The notes below the pieces were generated by a model. The model saw only the letters and a list, made by a program, of their open reading frames with translations. It was not told where the DNA came from and ran no database searches. A stretch of 49,336 nt of DNA from positions 1 to 49,336 of the forward strand of contig JAFPEE010000168.1 of the NCBI GenBank assembly GCA_017389705.1, given 5' to 3'. This DNA comes from Prevotella sp. Its GTDB lineage: Bacteria; Bacteroidota; Bacteroidia; Bacteroidales; Bacteroidaceae. Shown here piece by piece: positions 2,789 through 47,499 of the stretch (position 1 is the first letter of the stretch; every line of letters starts with the position of its first letter). A program made the position numbers and the translations under genes.

Positions 2789-3906
2789 TTCAATAATTGA
2801 TAGAAGGTAGGCTGATAGTCTTTCTCGACCAGCTCAGGATGGAAGATAGCCACAAAATCCTTCAGCAGGACATCAGGCTTGACAGGTGATATCTCATAAT
2901 AAGGCGTCTGCTTCATATTGCAATAGACCACCTTGCGTTCTTTGAATGCCTTAAACAATTCGTTGCGAGGTTCGCTGGCCTTTAGTGCCTCATAGCTGAA
3001 ATCACCTGCGAAACTATTTAGAATGCGCCAATAGTCGGCATTGGCAGCAAGGGCATACATCTTCTCAAACTCCAGGTTCTCGCCACTGGTCTCCTCATCG
3101 TGAAGCACGTAGTCAGCTCCTGCGTCACGAAATATCTGCGCCAAGTAGTTCTTTCCTCCTACTGCGTGCCAGTTGCCATAGTGCATCTCACCGCTGGTAA
3201 TGGTTGGCAACTCTTCGAAACCTGCTTCCTTTACTTTGTTCTTCAAGACGTTATAGCGTTGTTCGATACCTGCGAAGAGCTCGTTGGCCTCATGTTCCTT
3301 ACCGATGAACATTCCCACGAACTTAATCCATTCAGCCTGTCCCAACGGGTCGAGTTCTTTATAGCCCAAGTGGGGCACCAGCGTGATTCCCGTCTCACGA
3401 ATGGCATCATAGCCACCACGTTTGGAAGGCGAGATGAAGATTACATCAGGATTGGCAGCCAACACCAGCTCCGTATCCACGTTACCCTCCATCCCTATCT
3501 TGACAATGCTGCCGCCTTTGACACGCTGCTTGATATCTTTGTCAAACAGGTTCTTGGTGCCCGTAATACCTTTTATCACGTCGTGTGCCTCCAAGATGGT
3601 GAAGTTCGACAGTTGCAAGGCCGTCATCAGAATGGTGCGCTGTATAGGTACCTGTATCTTCACATAGTCAGCAGGTACTTGAACATCAGCCTGACGCACC
3701 AAAGCCAGATGCGTATCACGACCGACATCGACCAATCTGATATCAGCCGAATCGCGAACCGTGAAGCCTTTGGCGTACTGAACATTTATCGTTACCGAAG
3801 CGGTATCTGCCGTAATGTCTGATGTCTCTGCCTGATGCAAATTGCGTGATCCACAGGCTGTCAGGAATACGACAGCAAGAGAAAGTAGATGTAACTGTTT
3901 CTTCAT
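2785..3906 (-). CDS. btuF: Periplasmic corrinoid/iron-type substrate-binding lipoprotein (BtuF-like)
   Basis: A 373-residue class III substrate-binding protein. The N-terminus is a lipoprotein signal with the lipobox LTAC (Cys at about residue 18), so the protein should be tethered to a membrane facing the periplasm. The middle contains NPDVIFISPSKRGG, the usual pattern of the first lobe of this family, and GGKNYLAQIFRDAGADYV in the second lobe. It should deliver its ligand to the adjacent BtuC-like permease, with which it shares a 4-bp ATGA overlap, and it overlaps the upstream cbiB gene by 4 bp. A corrinoid ligand is inferred from the neighbours. A haem or siderophore ligand cannot be excluded. 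Confidence 0.82.
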   Translation of the reverse strand: MKKQLHLLSLAVVFLTACGSRNLHQAETSDITADTASVTINVQYAKGFTVRDSADIRLVDVGRDTHLALVRQADVQVPADYVKIQVPIQRTILMTALQLSNFTILEAHDVIKGITGTKNLFDKDIKQRVKGGSIVKIGMEGNVDTELVLAANPDVIFISPSKRGGYDAIRETGITLVPHLGYKELDPLGQAEWIKFVGMFIGKEHEANELFAGIEQRYNVLKNKVKEAGFEELPTITSGEMHYGNWHAVGGKNYLAQIFRDAGADYVLHDEETSGENLEFEKMYALAANADYWRILNSFAGDFSYEALKASEPRNELFKAFKERKVVYCNMKQTPYYEISPVKPDVLLKDFVAIFHPELVEKDYQPTFYQLLK

Positions 3907-4835
3907 AGGTGGATATGTGTAAAGTAACGTATGATGACTACCAGTACGACCATCACCACTTCAACCCTTCGGTTAATGCCGACAGCGCGACGCATGTCGT
4001 CTGTAGTCAACGGACGCTCGTTAGTACCAATATAAGGTTTGTCAAACCATTCTCCGAAATAATGGTGCGGTCCACCGAAGCGACAATTGAGGATTCCCGC
4101 CAAGGCAGCCTCAGGGTAACCGCTGTTAGGACTGTCCTGCTCGCGTCCGAACCAGGTGGTGAAGGACAACAAGCTAAAGCGCCACGTCACGAGCAACATC
4201 AGCAAGGCTGTAATGCGTGCCGGCAGGTAGTTGGCTACGTCGTCAATATGAGCAGCACACCATCCAAACTCACGGTAACGCTCCGTACGGTAGCCAATCA
4301 TAGAGTCCAACGTGTTGACCATCTTATAGGCCATCATTCCTGGAACCCCCAGCAACATGTACCAGAACAGCGGGGCTATCACTCCGTCGCTTAGGTTCTC
4401 TGCCAGCGTCTCCAAGGCTGCTGTACGCACTTCCTGCTCATTCAGGCTAGAAGTATCACGCCCCACAATACGGGCCACCTGTGTCCTCCCCTCCTCCAAC
4501 GAACGGTCTACTGCGCGGAACACCTCACAAACCTCACGAATCAACGTTGTTCCCGCCAGACAGTAGAAGACGCAGATGGCTCCTACGGCCATTCCCAGGA
4601 AGACGTTAATGCTGTATAGCCAATCCATCAGGTAGTAGAAGGCAGCAAACACAGCTGCTATCAGAACAATAGCCGTCAACGCGCCCTTCAGCTTGCGGAA
4701 GCGTCCTCTGTTCAGCCACCGCTCAAAGGCTGCTATCAGCTTACCAAACCACACGATGGGGTGCGGCAACCACGAAGGGTCGCCAATGATCAGATCTCCT
4801 ATCCAACCTACAAGTAAGATGAGTATTGCTTTCAT
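3903..4835 (-). CDS. cbiB: CbiB/CobD adenosylcobinamide-phosphate synthase
   Basis: A membrane protein of 310 residues that attaches aminopropanol or its phosphate to adenosylcobyric acid. Family motifs are the N-terminal WIGDLIIGDPSWLPHPIVWFG, the central NLSDGVIAPLFW and VNTLDSMIGYR, and the C-terminal ALAGILNCRFGGPHHYFG. I chose the start at 4835 because it gives the standard CbiB N-terminus and overlaps the stop of the upstream gene as ATGA. A longer frame reaching 4907 would overlap that gene by 76 bp and adds residues unlike the family. It lies in a four-gene operon in which every junction is a 4-bp overlap. Confidence 0.92.
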   Translation of the reverse strand: MKAILILLVGWIGDLIIGDPSWLPHPIVWFGKLIAAFERWLNRGRFRKLKGALTAIVLIAAVFAAFYYLMDWLYSINVFLGMAVGAICVFYCLAGTTLIREVCEVFRAVDRSLEEGRTQVARIVGRDTSSLNEQEVRTAALETLAENLSDGVIAPLFWYMLLGVPGMMAYKMVNTLDSMIGYRTERYREFGWCAAHIDDVANYLPARITALLMLLVTWRFSLLSFTTWFGREQDSPNSGYPEAALAGILNCRFGGPHHYFGEWFDKPYIGTNERPLTTDDMRRAVGINRRVEVVMVVLVVIIRYFTHIHL

Positions 4836-9481: not shown

Positions 9482-10798
9482 ATGACGTACCAAGAGACCT
9501 GCGAATACCTGTATAACCAGATGCCCATGTTCGAGCGACAGGGGGCTTCCGGCTACAAGGAAGGACTGAGCAACACGCTAGCGCTGGATGAGCACTTCGG
9601 ACATCCCCACCGCTCTTTCGCCACCATTCACGTGGCAGGCACCAACGGCAAGGGCAGCGTGTCGCACACACTTGCCTCCATCCTGCAGGAGTGTGGCTAC
9701 AGGGTTGGTCTCTATACTTCACCCCATCTGGTCGATTTCCGTGAGCGCATCCGTGTCAACGGAAAGCCCCTCAGCGAAGACTACGTCGTAGAGTTTGTCG
9801 ACAAGGAGCGCAACTTCTTTGAGCCCCTGCACCCATCCTTCTTCGAGGTTACCACAGCAATGGCCTTCAAGTACTTCCGCGATTTGGAAGTCGACATTGC
9901 CGTCATTGAGGTAGGCCTGGGAGGACGGCTCGACTGCACCAACATCATTACCCCACTCGTCTCCGTCATTACCAACATCAGCTTCGACCATACCCAGTTC
10001 CTGGGCGACACCCTGGCCAAGATTGCCGCTGAGAAGGCCGGTATTATTAAAAGAGGTGTACCGGTGGTCATTGGCGAGAACAACGACGAGACACGCCCTG
10101 TCTTCGAGCAGAAAGCCAAGGAGATGGAGGCTCCTATTGTCTTTGCCGAGGACGCCCCCATGGTCATCAGCGCCGAGATACGCCCCGAGGGAGGTATGCA
10201 CTACCACACCAAGATGTTTGGCGAGCTGGATGGCGACCTGGGTGGCATCTACCAAGCCAAGAACCTGAACACCGTCCTGCATGCTCTCACCGCCTTGTCA
10301 GAACAAGGCTATCTGTTACGCTGTCAGGACCAGTCTGCTGCCGACAAGTGTCTCTACGAGCTGCAGGAAGGCCTGAAGAACGTCATTACCCATACCGGAT
10401 TGCTGGGACGCTGGCAGACCATGAATAAAAGCCCCAAGGTGGTTTGCGACACCGGTCACAACCCAGGCGGCTGGCAATACCTCAGCCAGCAGCTGGCAAT
10501 GGTGGAGTGCCGCCAGATGCACATCGTCTTCGGTATGGTAAGCGACAAAGATGTCAATACCGTCCTTCAGATGCTTCCCAAGGACGCCAAATACTATTTT
10601 ACCCAGGCCCACAGCCCAAGAGCTATCAAAGCAGCCTCTCTGCAGACGCTGGCAGCCAGCTACGGACTGGAGGGAGAAGTCTATTACTCTGTCTATGAGG
10701 CATATACAACGGCTATGAAGCACGCTGCAAAAGACGATTTTGTATTCGTCGGAGGCTCCAGCTACGTCGTCGGCGATTTCCTGAAATCGTGTTTTTAG
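9482..10798 (+). CDS. folC: Bifunctional folylpolyglutamate synthase / dihydrofolate synthase
   Basis: A 438-residue Mur-ligase-type enzyme that adds glutamate to dihydropteroate or to folates, using ATP. The ATP-binding loop is HVAGTNGKGSVSHTLASIL near residue 50. Also seen are LYTSPHLVDFRERIRVNG, the family pattern AVIEVGLGGRLDCTN, and ISFDHTQFLGDTLAKIAAEKAGIIK. The ATG follows the dnaJ stop immediately, so it is the last gene of an apparent abcF-grpE-dnaJ-folC run. Linkage to chaperone genes has no obvious biochemical meaning and probably reflects shared growth-linked expression. Confidence 0.95.
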   Translation: MTYQETCEYLYNQMPMFERQGASGYKEGLSNTLALDEHFGHPHRSFATIHVAGTNGKGSVSHTLASILQECGYRVGLYTSPHLVDFRERIRVNGKPLSEDYVVEFVDKERNFFEPLHPSFFEVTTAMAFKYFRDLEVDIAVIEVGLGGRLDCTNIITPLVSVITNISFDHTQFLGDTLAKIAAEKAGIIKRGVPVVIGENNDETRPVFEQKAKEMEAPIVFAEDAPMVISAEIRPEGGMHYHTKMFGELDGDLGGIYQAKNLNTVLHALTALSEQGYLLRCQDQSAADKCLYELQEGLKNVITHTGLLGRWQTMNKSPKVVCDTGHNPGGWQYLSQQLAMVECRQMHIVFGMVSDKDVNTVLQMLPKDAKYYFTQAHSPRAIKAASLQTLAASYGLEGEVYYSVYEAYTTAMKHAAKDDFVFVGGSSYVVGDFLKSCF

Positions 10799-14608: not shown

Positions 14609-14631
14609 GTGTGAGTGAATAGCAGCGTAAA

Positions 14632-14697
14632 TGTTAAAAAACAGCTCAAAAAGGCACTTAATGTTACTTGTTACCTGTTACTTTGTTACTTTCGCAT
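14632..14697 (+). repeat. Left 66-bp inverted repeat with GTTAC iterons
   Basis: It contains four closely spaced GTTAC words in its inner half (GTTACTT, GTTACCT, GTTACTTT, GTTACTTTCGC) and an A-rich outer half. The other copy is at 16667-16732 in reverse orientation with two mismatches. The inner edge touches a hairpin that follows the minus-strand gene. Confidence 0.95.
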
Positions 14698-14731
14698 GAG
14701 GAGGCCCCAACCCCTGAGGGCTGGAGCCTCC
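14698..14731. terminator. Hairpin after the minus-strand cassette gene
   Basis: AGGAGGC pairs with GCCTCCT, with inner CCC/GGG pairs. It lies directly between the stop of the 162-residue gene and the left inverted repeat. There is no run of T in the minus direction, so it is a weak terminator or an RNA 3-prime-end stem. Confidence 0.45.
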
Positions 14732-14735
14732 TTGT

Positions 14736-15224
14736 TCATACCTCTTTCTTTTCGTCCTTTTGTGGATTATAGATGTCCTCTGGCTTGCAGTTCATGACGA
14801 ACATGCTGTCCATCTTGAACACGGCCTTGGGGAAGATTTTCATCAGGGCCAGCACCAGGCCACGTGCCATCAGACGCTGCGTCGGGGTGGCAGTCCTGAC
14901 GTACTTGCCCTCTGTGCCACGCACAGCCACGCACCCTATCAGTATGCCCTCTGCGTTGTAGCCGGACAACGCCTCGCCTGGGCGCTGCATGAGGATGTCC
15001 GCGATGACCTTGCCCTGTGGGGTTATCAGCAGGTGGAAGCCTGTGTTCTCCACCCAAGGTCTCATCAGTATGACCTTCACCTGGTCTTCGTCTTCAAGGG
15101 TTTGTGTCAGCTGGTCTTCGTCACTGACGGACTTGATGTCTTCGTCGAGGTTTAACGTTGCTGCCATGACGATGATGTATTTGATGTCCCGACGCAAGGC
15201 GGGAATGTGCATACGTTTTGCCAT
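14736..15224 (-). CDS. Hypothetical protein, 162 residues
   Basis: I do not recognise this protein. It is soluble, with an acidic stretch (residues 25-50, DEDQLTQTLEDEDQ) and a lysine-rich, acidic C-terminal tail. The middle contains GFHLLITPQGKVIADILM and EGILIGCVAVRGTEGKYVR, which read like beta strands. Two starts are possible: ATG 15224 (used here, 18 nt after the upstream stop) or ATG 15167. It lies just downstream of the DUF3987-type remnant and inside the 66-bp inverted repeats, so it belongs to the cassette. No family is assigned. Confidence 0.6.
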   Translation of the reverse strand: MAKRMHIPALRRDIKYIIVMAATLNLDEDIKSVSDEDQLTQTLEDEDQVKVILMRPWVENTGFHLLITPQGKVIADILMQRPGEALSGYNAEGILIGCVAVRGTEGKYVRTATPTQRLMARGLVLALMKIFPKAVFKMDSMFVMNCKPEDIYNPQKDEKKEV

Positions 15225-15242
15225 AATACATTACTGTTTTAG

Positions 15243-15710
15243 TTATACGATTACTTTCATGATTTTCTTGTACTGTCCTTGCTTGACACGCTGGATATAG
15301 CTGGCCTTTACCCATCTGCTAAGCAATGTTTTTATTGCTTTTCTTGACGAACCTACTACCTTGACAGCTATCTCGTTGGTGAACTCGTCAGGCAGCTGAC
15401 TGTAGAGCTCGGCATTGCGCGAGGTGCGCTGACGGGGCACGAAGATGCGGTTGGCATTCTCCCACGACTCCTGCAGCATCTGGCCGAAGAAGTAGTCCTG
15501 CCAGTAGATGACAGCGTCGTACATGACGGTAGCCCACTGCAGGTCGTCGTCGGTGACGACAATCTTGTCAAAAGGCTCCGAGCTCCAGTCCTCGCGGCAC
15601 AGACGTGCCACGATGCGGGGTATGGTGAACCACTCGGCATAGAAGACGGCACGTCGGCGCAGGGTGTCCAGCACGGTGTCCGACGATGCCTCCGCCTCGA
15701 AGGAGTGACC
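15243..15710 (-). pseudogene. C-terminal remnant of a VirE/DUF3987-type primase-helicase gene
   Basis: About 155 codons resemble the C-terminus of the intact 837-residue gene at 44986-47499. Matching stretches include DDDLQWATVMYDAVIYWQDY followed by FF against KKDIELALFIAQAQYDFQQY followed by FF, then RTSRNAELYSQLPDEF against RTMQAFTRLPEVF, and a basic end with QGQYKKI against DKGKYRKL. The frame stays open to 15992, but that part covers a hairpin, a promoter and repeats of the divergent HU gene and shows no protein-like character, and no Met occurs near the start of the similarity. I conclude that the primase and helicase parts have been lost. Confidence 0.6.
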
Positions 15711-15745
15711 CCATAACCCACAAAAAACACCGAGTAAAGAACCAG

Positions 15746-15776
15746 CCTCAAACCCCGATGGACAAAGGGTTTGAGG
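15746..15776. other. Perfect 10-bp hairpin in the divergent spacer
   Basis: CCTCAAACCC (15746-15755) pairs exactly with GGGTTTGAGG (15767-15776) around an 11-nt loop. It lies between the 5-prime edge of the remnant and the HU promoter. It could be an operator or a leftover terminator. The rest of 15711-15841 is A-rich with no gene. Confidence 0.6.
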
Positions 15777-15841
15777 GCAGTTTCGAAAAAATAAAAAAGC
15801 GGTTTTTTGCCGAAAACATTGATGGTTTGAGAAAATAGTCG

Positions 15842-15849
15842 TACCTTTG
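15842..15849 (+). promoter_or_regulatory. -7 box for the HU-like gene leader
   Basis: TACCTTTG matches the consensus, and ATTG at 15819-15822 lies 19 bp upstream as a possible -33 element. Transcription from here would give a leader of nearly 200 nt before the HU ATG at 16051. Confidence 0.6.
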
Positions 15850-15903
15850 CCTTGCGATTCGGGGGCAGGCGACTCCAGGCTGGCAGTGCACGGCTGGCTA
15901 GAA

Positions 15904-15997
15904 CCGTCCAAGCGAGGACGGAGCGGAGTTTGTCCGAAGACGAGGCAAAGACAGTCCGAAGACCGGTCATGGACAGTCCGAGACCAGCGCAAAAGCC
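15904..15997 (+). repeat. 22-nt tandem repeats and hairpin in the HU leader
   Basis: GTCCGAAGAC occurs at 15932 and 15954, and GTCCGAGACC at 15976, giving an exact 22-nt period. Just upstream CCGTCC (15904-15909) pairs with GGACGG (15916-15921). The whole stretch lies in the predicted untranslated leader, so it may act as structured RNA or as a phased protein-binding array. Confidence 0.7.
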
Positions 15998-16050
15998 CCC
16001 GGTGGCGCAGCTTTAAAAAATCCTATGTTTAACTTAAAAATCTTACAACA

Positions 16051-16623
16051 ATGGCAGTAAACAGTATTCAGTATCCTATTGACTTCGTCAAGAACAACAA
16101 CCAAACCTCTACGGGCTACGGTAAGTACTACGCCAAGGCTCACAATGCCGAGACGCTGACCAACGAGGGTCTGGTGGACCACATCGTACACCACAACTGC
16201 GCCGTAGGTCGTGAGGCCATCGCAGCCGTGCTGAAGAAGCTGGGCGAGTGTATCCCCGAGCTCGTAGCACAGGGTCAGCCCATCAAGATCGACGGCCTGG
16301 GCATCTTCTACGGCACCGCAGAGAACCAGAAGAACGGTCTCACCAAGGCCCAGCTGCTGGACACGAAGGTGAACCCGCTGGACGTCCTGGCAGGCATCCA
16401 TCTGCGTTTCACTCCCCAGAGTGACTCGCTGAACGACCTGACCTCCAAGTCGTATCTGAAGATGCAGGTAGCGCCTGTGGTGAACCTCATCATGGATCCG
16501 CAGGGCATCGACCTGACGCCTACCGAGACGGACCCCAAAAAGAAGAAGTACGCCACCGCGAAGGCTACTCTTCAGGAGTTCCGCGCAGCTCAGGGCTTCC
16601 CCGAGAACACCCCAAATCCTTAA
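16051..16623 (+). CDS. HU-like DNA-binding protein (extended, Bacteroidetes type)
   Basis: A 190-residue relative of the histone-like HU/IHF family, of the longer kind common in Bacteroidetes. Residues 1-125 hold the HU-like fold: an N-terminal YYAKAHNAETLTNEGLVDHI helix region, GREAIAAVLKKLGECIPELV, then the beta part GQPIKIDGLGIFYG. After about residue 130 there is a family-specific C-terminal extension with a basic PKKKKYATAK patch. It probably binds DNA with little sequence specificity. In Bacteroidetes such genes often sit beside VirE/DUF3987 genes, as here beside a remnant. It has a long repeat-bearing leader and its own terminator. Confidence 0.85.
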   Translation: MAVNSIQYPIDFVKNNNQTSTGYGKYYAKAHNAETLTNEGLVDHIVHHNCAVGREAIAAVLKKLGECIPELVAQGQPIKIDGLGIFYGTAENQKNGLTKAQLLDTKVNPLDVLAGIHLRFTPQSDSLNDLTSKSYLKMQVAPVVNLIMDPQGIDLTPTETDPKKKKYATAKATLQEFRAAQGFPENTPNP

Positions 16624-16634
16624 TTTTAGGTATG

Positions 16635-16666
16635 GCTCCCTGTCCGTTAGGACAGGGGGCTTTTTT
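16635..16666 (+). terminator. Intrinsic terminator of the HU-like gene
   Basis: GCTCCCTGTCC pairs with GGACAGGGGGC around GTTA and is followed by six T. It touches the right 66-bp inverted repeat, mirroring the hairpin at the left end. Confidence 0.9.
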
Positions 16667-16732
16667 ATGCGAAAGTAACAAAGTAACAGGTAACAAGTAA
16701 CATTAAGTGCCTTTTTGAGGCGTTTTTTAACA
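16667..16732 (-). repeat. Right 66-bp inverted repeat with GTTAC iterons
   Basis: This is the reverse complement of 14632-14697 with two mismatches (AG against GC near the outer end). The four GTTAC words and the TGTTAAAAAAC outer end are kept. The stretch GCCTTTTTGAGGCGTTTTTT within it can also form a short stem followed by T on the plus strand. Confidence 0.95.
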
Positions 16733-16756
16733 CTTTCCTTTTGTGTACTGTGTAAA

Positions 16757-16809: not shown

Positions 16810-16911
16810 GATTTACTTGTCAGCTAAAAAGCCTTGACAAGAAGATTTACTTGTCAGCTAAAAAGCCTTGACAAGAAGATTTACTTGTCAGCCTCGGCAG
16901 CCTTGGTCTTG
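16810..16911 (-). repeat. 34-bp tandem duplication at the 3-prime end of the TPR gene
   Basis: A 34-bp unit begins at 16810 and again at 16844, exactly repeated, and a third, diverged copy begins at 16878. The third copy covers the last codons and stop of the TPR gene. Each unit holds CTTGTCA and TGACAAG, which can pair, so the untranslated tail carries two copies of a hairpin as well as two spare stop codons. Confidence 0.85.
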
Positions 16912-44985: not shown

Positions 44986-47499
44986 TTATACTAATTTTCG
45001 ATACTTACCCTTGTCCTCTCCTCTGCGTATTTTCTTGATTCTTCCATCGTCCTTAAGGCGCTTGATGCAGCTGTTGACCGAGTTGTTGTTGTCGTAGTCA
45101 AATTCATGCATCACATCACTGCTAGAGAACACCTCTGGCAGACGGGTGAAGGCCTGCATGGTTCTGGACTGAGGCTTTTTGCCATACGACTTGGCAATCT
45201 GCTTCTCATGCTGCTTTTGGCCTAGATCGTAGAAGAAATACTGCTGGAAGTCGTATTGTGCCTGTGCAATGAACAGGGCCAACTCAATGTCCTTCTTGTC
45301 AATATGGAAACCTACACCACACCTGAATTTGTCATTTTTGTCTTGTACCATCTCTCCCCAATGTCTGCTGACAATGAAGGGAAGTGCAAAATTGATACCT
45401 ACCCATGCTGGGCGTTTCAACATCTCCTCCAGAACCTCTGACTGTTCCTCACGGGCTTCGTCCATTTTCCTGGAGGTCCACTGATAGAGGGCTTTGCTCA
45501 GTTCTTCTGTAGGTATTTCACCTATGGTGCGATCCAGCTTGTATGCCCACTCTCGAATCTGCTGCTCCACATTGCTGTCTTCCTGAGTGTACTGCCTGTA
45601 CTCCATCATCTCGTAAAGTGACGGGCCCATGGGTACACAGGCAAAGCGTGTGGTAGTGCCACTATTGTAGGTGCTTTCAGAGGCTATCTTTTCAAAGGCA
45701 TCGTACGTGCCTGTATAGACAGCATTGAAGTGGATGGGGTATTCGCCCACAGGGGAAGAAGATGTTTTCAATAGGGCGCCCCCCATCTCATTTGAAAAGC
45801 TCTTTAACCAAAGAGTCATGAATGCATCCATGTGCGACTTCTTCATCTGACTAAGTGTGTGATTAAGCTCACTGTCAAAAATTGATACATGCAGGGGCCA
45901 CTCCTCACCGTCTATCATCTCCTTGGCATTGAACTCTGCTTCACGAATGGCTGCAGCTGAGGTCTCAGCAGGCAGACAACGATAGATGGATGTTGGTCTG
46001 ACGGTTGAACTCTTGCTGGCACCATTGTTCTGCTCTCGCTCAGCATTGTATGCATTCAAAGCGTCAATCTGAGCCTGGTCATCCTTCTTGATGGGCTCCA
46101 TGAGCAGTTTGTAAAGATCGACTGCAAAACTCTTGCCACTAGCAGGCCTGCCAATTACCATCACGAGTGAATTAATTCTACACTTATGGCCAGGTTTAGG
46201 ATAGAACGAGTACCAGCAGCGGGTCATCAGCGTAGTGCAGAAACCACCGCCGACAAAGAGTGCTGCTATGTAGTGTATGGGCTTGCGTCTGTGGCAGAAG
46301 AGCTTCAGTAATGGGAAATACGCATTGAACTTCCTTATACGCTCTCCCATACGCAAGAGCATCTCCACCTGTTCGTCAGAAGCCTTCTTACTGCCAAGCA
46401 TGACATTGCTGGCATCCAACAGGCTTTTATAGCTTCTGCCGGTCAGTTGCTCAATGGCAGCCACCATGTTTTTAGAAGGACGGACCGTGTAGAAACTTTC
46501 AGACTCACGCTTCTTAAGCAGTTTTTGGGCAGAATCAATCACATCGTCAAGCTCTTTCATCTTTCGTTCTTTTACCACATTCTGCACCCAGTCAAACTGT
46601 AACAGCGCCTTTTTCACCTTATCGGCATCGTTGTCAAGTAAGACTACCAGGTCATTGGCCAGCTTCAGCATGGTTTTGTGGCGCTGACCTTTAGGTGCAC
46701 CGTTGGGAAACATGCAGTTAACGTAGTCAGCCACAGGGTGATTGAACACCATGTAGGTTTCGGCCTCTTCTGACTGAGGCTCGGTGCTGGTAGATGTTGA
46801 GGCCTCGGCTGTGGTCTGGGGAGCGTCAGTACAGGTAGTGAACCAATCAGGCCCTATAGCATCCTCCCATGGGCGATAGTGCTTTTCACCCTTTTTGAAA
46901 TTGGCAGGTAACTTCTCTTCACCACGTTCCTCGCGTTCCCTCATAAGCTGGTATTCAGCCTTACCTTCTTCTACTGTGAGGGGCTCGTCAAAGATGCTGT
47001 CATCAAGGTATAGCAAAACGCTCTCGTCAGCAGGGCCTGTAAACATGACACGCTGCTCGTCGTGGGCATTGCAGTCCATCTCTGTATGAGTAATCAGCGA
47101 AAAACGTATCTGATTCTCCAGAATGGTCAAGCCCAACACTCTACGACAAATGGGATGCAGACCCCAGTTGGCTGATCTTGACAGCTCCAACAAGCCCAGT
47201 TCTTCCTTGTGCTGTAGTATACGCTGGGCAATCTCTTTACACTCCTGCTCGTCACGGCAGTCTATGTCGTGGCTGAATGTAGAGGCAGCAGTGTTGCAGC
47301 CAGCTAAGAGGCCATTGGGCAACTGGTCGTTGTAGTTGAACTGAACCTGCTGCCTTTTGGCAAAGTCATCACCAGAACCGCCCTTCTGGAAGTTATTCCT
47401 ATTCGAAGGTGTGTTTCTGATTCCATAATACTCTTCTCTGTTTGTAATAGGGGTGGCCACCTTGTGGCCCTCCCCATTTTTAGTAATCAAATTAACCAT
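44986..47499 (-). CDS. VirE/BT4734-type primase-like and DUF3987 helicase-like protein
   Basis: An 837-residue protein of the kind common in Bacteroidetes accessory regions. The N-terminal 200 residues resemble the BT4734/VirE_N primase-like domain (GCNTAASTFSHDIDCRDEQE, with the acidic DIDC). The DUF3987 helicase-like part has a Walker A motif, VIGRPASGKSFAVDLY, near residue 448, and FDSELNHTLSQM later. The C-terminus is basic (IKKIRRGEDKGKYRKL), like the remnant at 15243-15710. It may act in replication or mobilisation of accessory DNA. Its ATG overlaps the stop of the small upstream gene by one base (TAATG). Confidence 0.8.
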   Translation of the reverse strand: MVNLITKNGEGHKVATPITNREEYYGIRNTPSNRNNFQKGGSGDDFAKRQQVQFNYNDQLPNGLLAGCNTAASTFSHDIDCRDEQECKEIAQRILQHKEELGLLELSRSANWGLHPICRRVLGLTILENQIRFSLITHTEMDCNAHDEQRVMFTGPADESVLLYLDDSIFDEPLTVEEGKAEYQLMREREERGEEKLPANFKKGEKHYRPWEDAIGPDWFTTCTDAPQTTAEASTSTSTEPQSEEAETYMVFNHPVADYVNCMFPNGAPKGQRHKTMLKLANDLVVLLDNDADKVKKALLQFDWVQNVVKERKMKELDDVIDSAQKLLKKRESESFYTVRPSKNMVAAIEQLTGRSYKSLLDASNVMLGSKKASDEQVEMLLRMGERIRKFNAYFPLLKLFCHRRKPIHYIAALFVGGGFCTTLMTRCWYSFYPKPGHKCRINSLVMVIGRPASGKSFAVDLYKLLMEPIKKDDQAQIDALNAYNAEREQNNGASKSSTVRPTSIYRCLPAETSAAAIREAEFNAKEMIDGEEWPLHVSIFDSELNHTLSQMKKSHMDAFMTLWLKSFSNEMGGALLKTSSSPVGEYPIHFNAVYTGTYDAFEKIASESTYNSGTTTRFACVPMGPSLYEMMEYRQYTQEDSNVEQQIREWAYKLDRTIGEIPTEELSKALYQWTSRKMDEAREEQSEVLEEMLKRPAWVGINFALPFIVSRHWGEMVQDKNDKFRCGVGFHIDKKDIELALFIAQAQYDFQQYFFYDLGQKQHEKQIAKSYGKKPQSRTMQAFTRLPEVFSSSDVMHEFDYDNNNSVNSCIKRLKDDGRIKKIRRGEDKGKYRKLV

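Follow-up and report, generated by a model that had tools for sequence, protein, structure and literature searches.

The window analyzed here, a stretch of 49,336 nucleotides from a Prevotella sp. (GenBank assembly GCA_017389705.1, contig JAFPEE010000168.1), carries at positions 14,632 to 16,732 a small cassette of three genes that is bounded by inverted repeats. We consider it likely that this cassette is the relic, with its middle deleted, of an inverted-repeat-bounded island, and that its two arms correspond to DUF3987 half-sites, i.e., short arrays of a 5-base core joined to a tail. The window keeps both ends, the HU gene and the last part of a DUF3987 gene without the middle, and can thus be understood as the deletion relic of an island like that found at locus L386 of our collection. 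Comparison of sequences establishes three properties of this group of elements: an array at the 3' end of the DUF3987 gene, a matching core at a distant site, and the covariation of a single residue of the DUF3987 protein with the third base of the core.

The two 66-bp sequences in opposite orientation and with TG...CA outer ends that an earlier note on this DNA had described were confirmed by alignment: the arms are identical at 64 of 66 positions, are inverted in the manner of the terminal repeats of insertion sequences and transposons, and are part of a wider inverted repeat of 80 nt (14629-14708 and 16656-16735; 91%, 73 of 80 identical). A 36-nt piece of the arm, searched with up to three mismatches, is found twice in the window and in none of 100 shuffles. 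In the draft genome from which the window derives (3.5 Mb, 265 contigs, 86% complete), there are two long and three partial matches, and the full pair occurs once. Each arm is composed of the core GTAAC, repeated at a spacing of 7-8 nt, then ATTAAG, and finally a more extended tail, so that inverted array-plus-tail half-sites stand at both cassette ends. The order gene, hairpin, repeat seen by the earlier note holds at either end, with predicted folds of -35.2 and -26.5 kcal/mol. A search for the arm in relatives gave matches in 4 of 60 genomes, the genome of the window included; outside of the latter, these are short pieces only.

An apparently complete element of this type is present at L386. 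Its 7.9 kb are bounded by 77-bp inverted repeats (1767-1841 and 9618-9694; 69 of 77 identical) that have the same build as the window arms and are each preceded by a hairpin. From one end to the other, L386 consists of a half-site, a hairpin, two HU-HIG genes, the cargo with a central site in which two arrays flank an AT palindrome, the gene for an 833-amino-acid DUF3987 protein, a hairpin, and the second half-site. The cargo comprises a Rha/KilAC antirepressor gene and a gene (3349-4416) for a PD-(D/E)XK nuclease that matches a 'transposase' family (PF12784, E 1.9e-75). L205 shows the half-site arrangement F, R-palindrome-F, R, in which HU and DUF3987 lie between the sites and the first half-site is placed beyond HU and a hairpin; L385 has a hairpin, an array and a tail that resemble those of the window. 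Most of the other loci seen possess the central site and a half-site after DUF3987 only, usually with a lysozyme-like gene next to it. The decay of a replication gene, which the earlier note had suggested as one way to understand the cassette, is therefore well supported, since L386 shares its build and other relatives keep the central site together with a full DUF3987 gene.

The position of the arrays was assessed in a set of loci collected with a DUF3987 profile (80 genome loci, kept from at least 117 relatives, and 2 viral contigs); these loci are related, and most of the data come from draft assemblies of a single genus-level group. In 59 of the 82 loci, a tandem array is located between -80 and +200 of the DUF3987 stop codon, compared with 75 of 815 other gene ends from the same loci, including those beside the second site. 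Together with the single occurrence of the full pair in the genome of the window, this shows that the repeats are not random terminators, an outcome that the earlier note had envisaged. The 5-mer core differs from element to element and reads GTAAC, GTCCC, GCCAC, GTGAC, GCTAC, GCAAC, GTTGC, GTCGC or GTTAC. An opposed pair of arrays is present 3.3-10.7 kb before the DUF3987 stop codon in 26 loci, and this distant site shares its core with the 3' array in 25 of them (permuted mean 8.6, maximum 16 in 2000 permutations), where it should be noted that the core-sharing pair was chosen in loci with several opposed pairs, a choice that concerns L151. The longest perfect palindrome between the opposed arrays has a median length of 20 nt in these 26 loci, compared with a mean of 9.3 and a maximum of 18 after shuffling, and exceeds all 20 shuffles of its own sequence in 17 of 26 loci. 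In 67 of the 82 loci, a lysozyme-like gene (64 DUF5675-like, 3 muramidase-like) is found no more than 900 nt behind DUF3987. Restriction enzymes, methylases, antirepressors and toxin-antitoxin genes are among the cargo between the distant site and DUF3987, as is one DDE transposase. The cargo scan covered 111 of 134 open reading frames (ORFs); of the Pfam families matched, 25 of 41 are listed, and of the PADLOC families, 25 of 223; no integrase is found among those 25 Pfam families.

Other Prevotella genomes also contain arrays of this type, frequently in opposed pairs around an AT palindrome, and four-copy arrays were seen by eye after the DUF3987 genes of L320 and L323, which belong to distant DUF3987 groups. 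A triple-GTTAC pattern matches 28 of 100 genomes, our own included, but the reversed control matches many as well, so that this genome count is by itself weak proof. One genome, G071 (L054, L055, L289-L291), has 152 such matches, an expansion of the pattern, and those that were read have no HU or DUF3987 gene nearby. Three contigs of G068 (L273, L274 and L275) break off within the AT palindrome of a site of this kind or next to it; assemblies may hence under-report them. Records of plasmids yielded zero matches for DUF3987. In those of phages, DUF3987 had two matches, both weak, HU had one, and the amidase-like gene of the cassette had none.

The core of the array covaries with the C-terminus of the DUF3987 protein. 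When nearest neighbors are compared, 34 of 48 share the core if neighbors are defined by the C-terminus (permuted maximum 20), compared with 18 of 48 if they are defined by the N-terminus (permuted maximum 19); the ORF preceding DUF3987 gives a weaker signal than the C-terminus (7 of 18; no permutation). Within the protein, the covariation is strongest for the last C-terminal segment (24 of 35, permuted maximum 16). It can be traced to a helix of the form R-X-I-I-x-R-W, in which the residue X goes with the third base of the core: Met with A, Asn with C, Lys with G, and Thr, Val or Ser with T. This fixed rule accounts for 64 of the 65 callable loci among the 82, whereas 5000 permutations gave a mean of 27.8 and at most 37, and several of the 17 uncallable loci fit by eye. 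L371/L386, with Thr and the core ATTAC, conforms to it, as do seven further DUF3987 genes (L050, L056, L051, L042, L028, L036, L038) that possibly overlap with the 82. Among pairs of loci whose helicase regions share 85% identity or more but whose base differs, the residue differs also (268 of 268 pairs, which are not independent of each other). The rule likewise fits the distant full site in all 25 callable loci of the 26, and such an agreement at a site kilobases away could hardly be explained by physical linkage alone.

The features of the window cassette are compiled in Table 1. The HU-like gene of the earlier note encodes an HU-HIG protein (E 1.1e-13, 51.8 bits against a cut-off of 26.2) and is intact; it is divergent from the DUF3987 gene, as in other islands with these two genes, and the latter is present as the truncated form that the note had recognized. 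The closest relatives of this stub share 48-56% identity with it and are mostly 800-860 amino acids long; at E ≤1e-6, a search with the stub found matches in 82 of 289 genomes, our own included. The gene that the note had called unknown has no Pfam match at E ≤1, yet its weak matches look like amidases, and alignment of its product with a profile of five amidase-like proteins gave an hhalign probability of 97.2 over 80 columns; three of these five proteins were scanned and all three belong to Amidase_2. The catalytic HC, GAH and GHR motifs of Amidase_2 are replaced in the alignment, and the gene can thus be addressed as a degenerate amidase. As noted before, no transposase is encoded by the three genes between the arms; the cassette also contains neither an integrase gene nor att sites of the kind used by staphylococcal pathogenicity islands (SaPIs) and phage-inducible chromosomal islands (PICIs), and there is no central array-palindrome-array site between the stub and HU. 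Within the same genome, a decayed piece at C227 holds 48 nt of HU, a copy of the region that precedes HU, and an array, and partial copies of the amidase-like gene occur at the contig ends C98 and C168. The window also carries a second, full-length DUF3987 gene (44986-47499, minus strand; 837 amino acids) with small neighbors up to 48924; no array was seen after its stop codon.

Table 1. Features of the inverted-repeat-bounded cassette, in coordinates of the window
Feature	Position	Strand	Remarks
Left 66-bp arm	14632..14697	+	Tail 14632-14662 and array of four GTTAC at 14663-14689; inward-facing; F half-site
Terminator-like hairpin	14699..14732		Separates the amidase-like gene and the left arm; predicted fold
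Degenerate N-acetylmuramoyl-L-alanine amidase-like gene, 162 aa	14736..15224	-	Catalytic motifs lost
DUF3987 helicase gene, C-terminal stub, ~150 aa	15243..15716	-	Aligns with full-length DUF3987 proteins
Stub-to-HU region	15717..16050		15723-16012 copied (94%) at C227
HU-HIG DNA-binding protein, 190 aa	16051..16623	+	PF18291
Terminator-like hairpin	16634..16662		Separates HU and the right arm; predicted fold
Right 66-bp arm	16666..16731	-	Array 16675-16701 and tail to 16731; four GTAAC, then ATTAAG; R half-site

A mechanism can be proposed for these elements. The C-terminal domain of DUF3987 would bind the arrays, and the protein, a predicted helicase of mobile-element replication, would then open the DNA at the AT-rich center. 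The array sites would probably act as origins of replication, in the style of SaPI Rep and of Cch2 from the staphylococcal cassette chromosome mec (SCCmec). The sites at both outer ends may possibly serve in recombination, in end processing, or in an activity of the nuclease found at L386. Since its own helicase gene is only a stub, the arms of the window could now be bound only in trans. A full-length DUF3987 gene at C231 of the same genome (L042), with Met and GTAAC, fits the class of the window arms, and its product may, somewhat more tentatively, be a candidate for such binding.

Several observations weigh against this interpretation. The reading residue of the window stub is Thr, which goes with T, and the arms read GTAAC. 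Of the 14 closest relatives of the stub that were read, which are 48-55% identical to it, L358 is the only one with an iteron array and a tail after DUF3987; six others have AT-rich short repeats only, and in ten an M15 gene follows DUF3987. At C231, 14 kb of sequence were read, and we found no HU gene and no additional array there. Other DUF3987 families are mostly devoid of such arrays, the palindrome of nine of the 26 full sites does not surpass the shuffles, and HU was detected within 1.5 kb of the full site, always on the same side and strand, in just 13 of the 26. A half-site beyond HU was seen in one of the 54 loci listed, many of which end before that place. With respect to the residue-base rule, L206 is the single misfit among the 65 callable loci, its 'array' being a TTAAAC-like simple repeat; L136 (Val with GTATC/GTAAC) is off the rule, L180 (Thr with mixed GTCAC/GTTGC) is uncallable and shows no clear fit, and L184 (Gln with ATGAC) and L358/L385 (Cys with ATGTC) fall outside the letters of the rule.

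The same sites might be given other functions. They might be operators through which DUF3987 regulates the transcription of HU and the cargo, rather than origins; in the 13 of 26 loci where HU is found, 253-995 bp separate the end of its match and the full site, and the cargo ORFs beyond HU are mostly co-oriented. We regard this as unlikely, because a half-site is also present after the DUF3987 gene, the half-sites of L205, L386 and the window follow gene-end hairpins, an odd location for an operator, and the AT palindrome between the arrays looks like an unwinding site. Alternatively, the palindromic sites might serve recombination or hairpin resolution, with which cassettes are excised, linearized or swapped. 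While the full site resembles two facing ends that have been joined, and the cargo varies among loci with similar DUF3987 genes, neither an integrase nor a telomerase is found among the 25 of 41 Pfam families listed for the 111 cargo proteins, and no junction form was seen; this makes such a role quite unlikely in our view.

The outward appearance of the cassette, with inverted 66-bp arms and TG...CA ends, could also be that of a transposon-like element whose window copy is non-autonomous and depends on a transposase encoded elsewhere. The 'transposase' family of the L386 nuclease, the DDE transposase among the 111 cargo proteins, and the occurrence of solo array-palindrome-array sites speak for it, as does a weak Y1-type (RAYT-like) transposase match in G412 (L233, 62-1201) beside a solo HU gene that is 84% identical to that of the window; a small, smalltalk-like gene lies beside this match as well. 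However, the arrays covary with DUF3987, the full pair is found once in the genome, the outer flanks of the cassette differ, with no target-site duplication seen in them, and solo sites of G068 share, by eye, their flanks with an HU-linked site, so that they look like remnants of elements. A reading of the solo sites as miniature inverted-repeat transposable elements was dropped for this reason, and a transposon as such appears improbable to us. The proposal in the earlier note of a non-autonomous element moved by another system fared unevenly: the match of the arms to the class of L042 and the L386 nuclease agree with it, but neither an empty site, a target duplication nor a second full pair was found. 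That the pair arose by chance or by gene conversion of terminator-associated repeats can be given hardly any credence; arm tail pieces do stand singly at C97 and C98, but the same build surrounds fuller elements in other species, and the statistics for array position, shared cores and the residue-base rule are strong. The piece at C97 (L045, 6495-6546, in G000) is a tail-to-tail palindrome of the window arm that lacks an array and follows an antitoxin-like helix-turn-helix gene; it could be a deleted site.

Strains with an empty site, which the earlier note had proposed to look for, were found at neither flank in 29 loci each. At the flank with the tetratricopeptide repeat (TPR) gene, galK is not within 1.5 kb of the TPR gene in these loci, some of which are on short contigs, and the TPR-gyrA arrangement is conserved; at the galK flank, the downstream regions are variable, carry no element genes and reveal no join. 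Apparent HU-HIG tail, smalltalk-like or M15 sequences were noticed by eye after gyrA-TPR in L096, L099, L102 and L108, which suggests a hot spot for islands. Directly after the TPR stop codon of the window, a perfect 34-nt tandem duplication (16810-16877) copies the last bases of the TPR gene.

Taken further, the comparisons would point to a family of integrase-less, inverted-repeat-bounded replicating islands in Prevotella-type bacteria, in which restriction-modification and other cargo is carried between HU and DUF3987 and the helicase of each island reads its own origin by Met-A, Asn-C, Lys-G and Thr/Val/Ser-T. The identity of the origin would shift through one residue and matched bases at all sites, and deleted islands, the cassette of the window among them, would survive as satellites with arms that fit a different DUF3987 protein. 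We judge the chances for and against this broader proposal to be about even. If it is true, such a residue-to-base rule, obeyed by dozens of helicase-site pairs in nature, would illustrate in a rare and directly testable way how mobile replicons diversify while their origins stay private, and it would help to explain the recurrent HU, DUF3987 and lysozyme gene sets of Prevotella. Moreover, DUF3987, as yet a domain of unknown function, would gain a DNA target and a role, and cargo islands (restriction-modification, toxin-antitoxin) in which no integrase is seen could be recognized by a sequence signature.

In SaPIs, sets of iterons are placed around an AT-rich stretch, and the alpha protein of P4 is a primase-helicase with ori and crr as two iteron sites several kb apart. 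The system described here resembles P4 in having two such sites and differs from it in its protein family, and no P4-type integrase or helper link was seen. Among the papers returned by our literature searches, we recognized none that describes these array sites. DUF3987 has been predicted to be a helicase in mobile-element replication, and BT4734-like proteins are a family of archaeo-eukaryotic primases (AEP) (Kazlauskas et al. 2018; PMC5862659); the word 'iteron' does not occur in the main text of that study, and the part available to us contains no such sites or reading rule, while the available part of PMC10434189 names the gene families in expression tables only. A likeness to AEP primase/DUF3987 replicons lies in the DUF3987 helicase itself and in a sub-threshold BT4734-like match at the N-terminus of the L386 protein. 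With SCCmec, where 5-nt iterons after the helicase gene are bound by the C-terminal domain of Cch2 and form a putative origin according to the part of PMC7581432 that we consulted, the present system has in common the 5-nt iterons behind a helicase gene; it is distinguished by another helicase family, its HU-HIG and lysozyme-like partners, inverted half-sites at the ends, and the lack of any Ccr-type recombinase in what we have seen. Membership in the SaPI Rep or SCCmec Cch2 families is not claimed. PMC7581432 also describes SaPI Rep, whose C-terminal domain recognizes short iterons that lie immediately behind the rep gene. Compared with SaPIs, the Bacteroidota elements have DUF3987 instead of Rep, no integrase that we could see, an additional site that is palindromic and 3-11 kb away from the end of the gene, and the covariation of one residue with one base; what they would share with SaPI Rep is an initiator helicase whose C-terminal domain reads the iterons beside its own gene.

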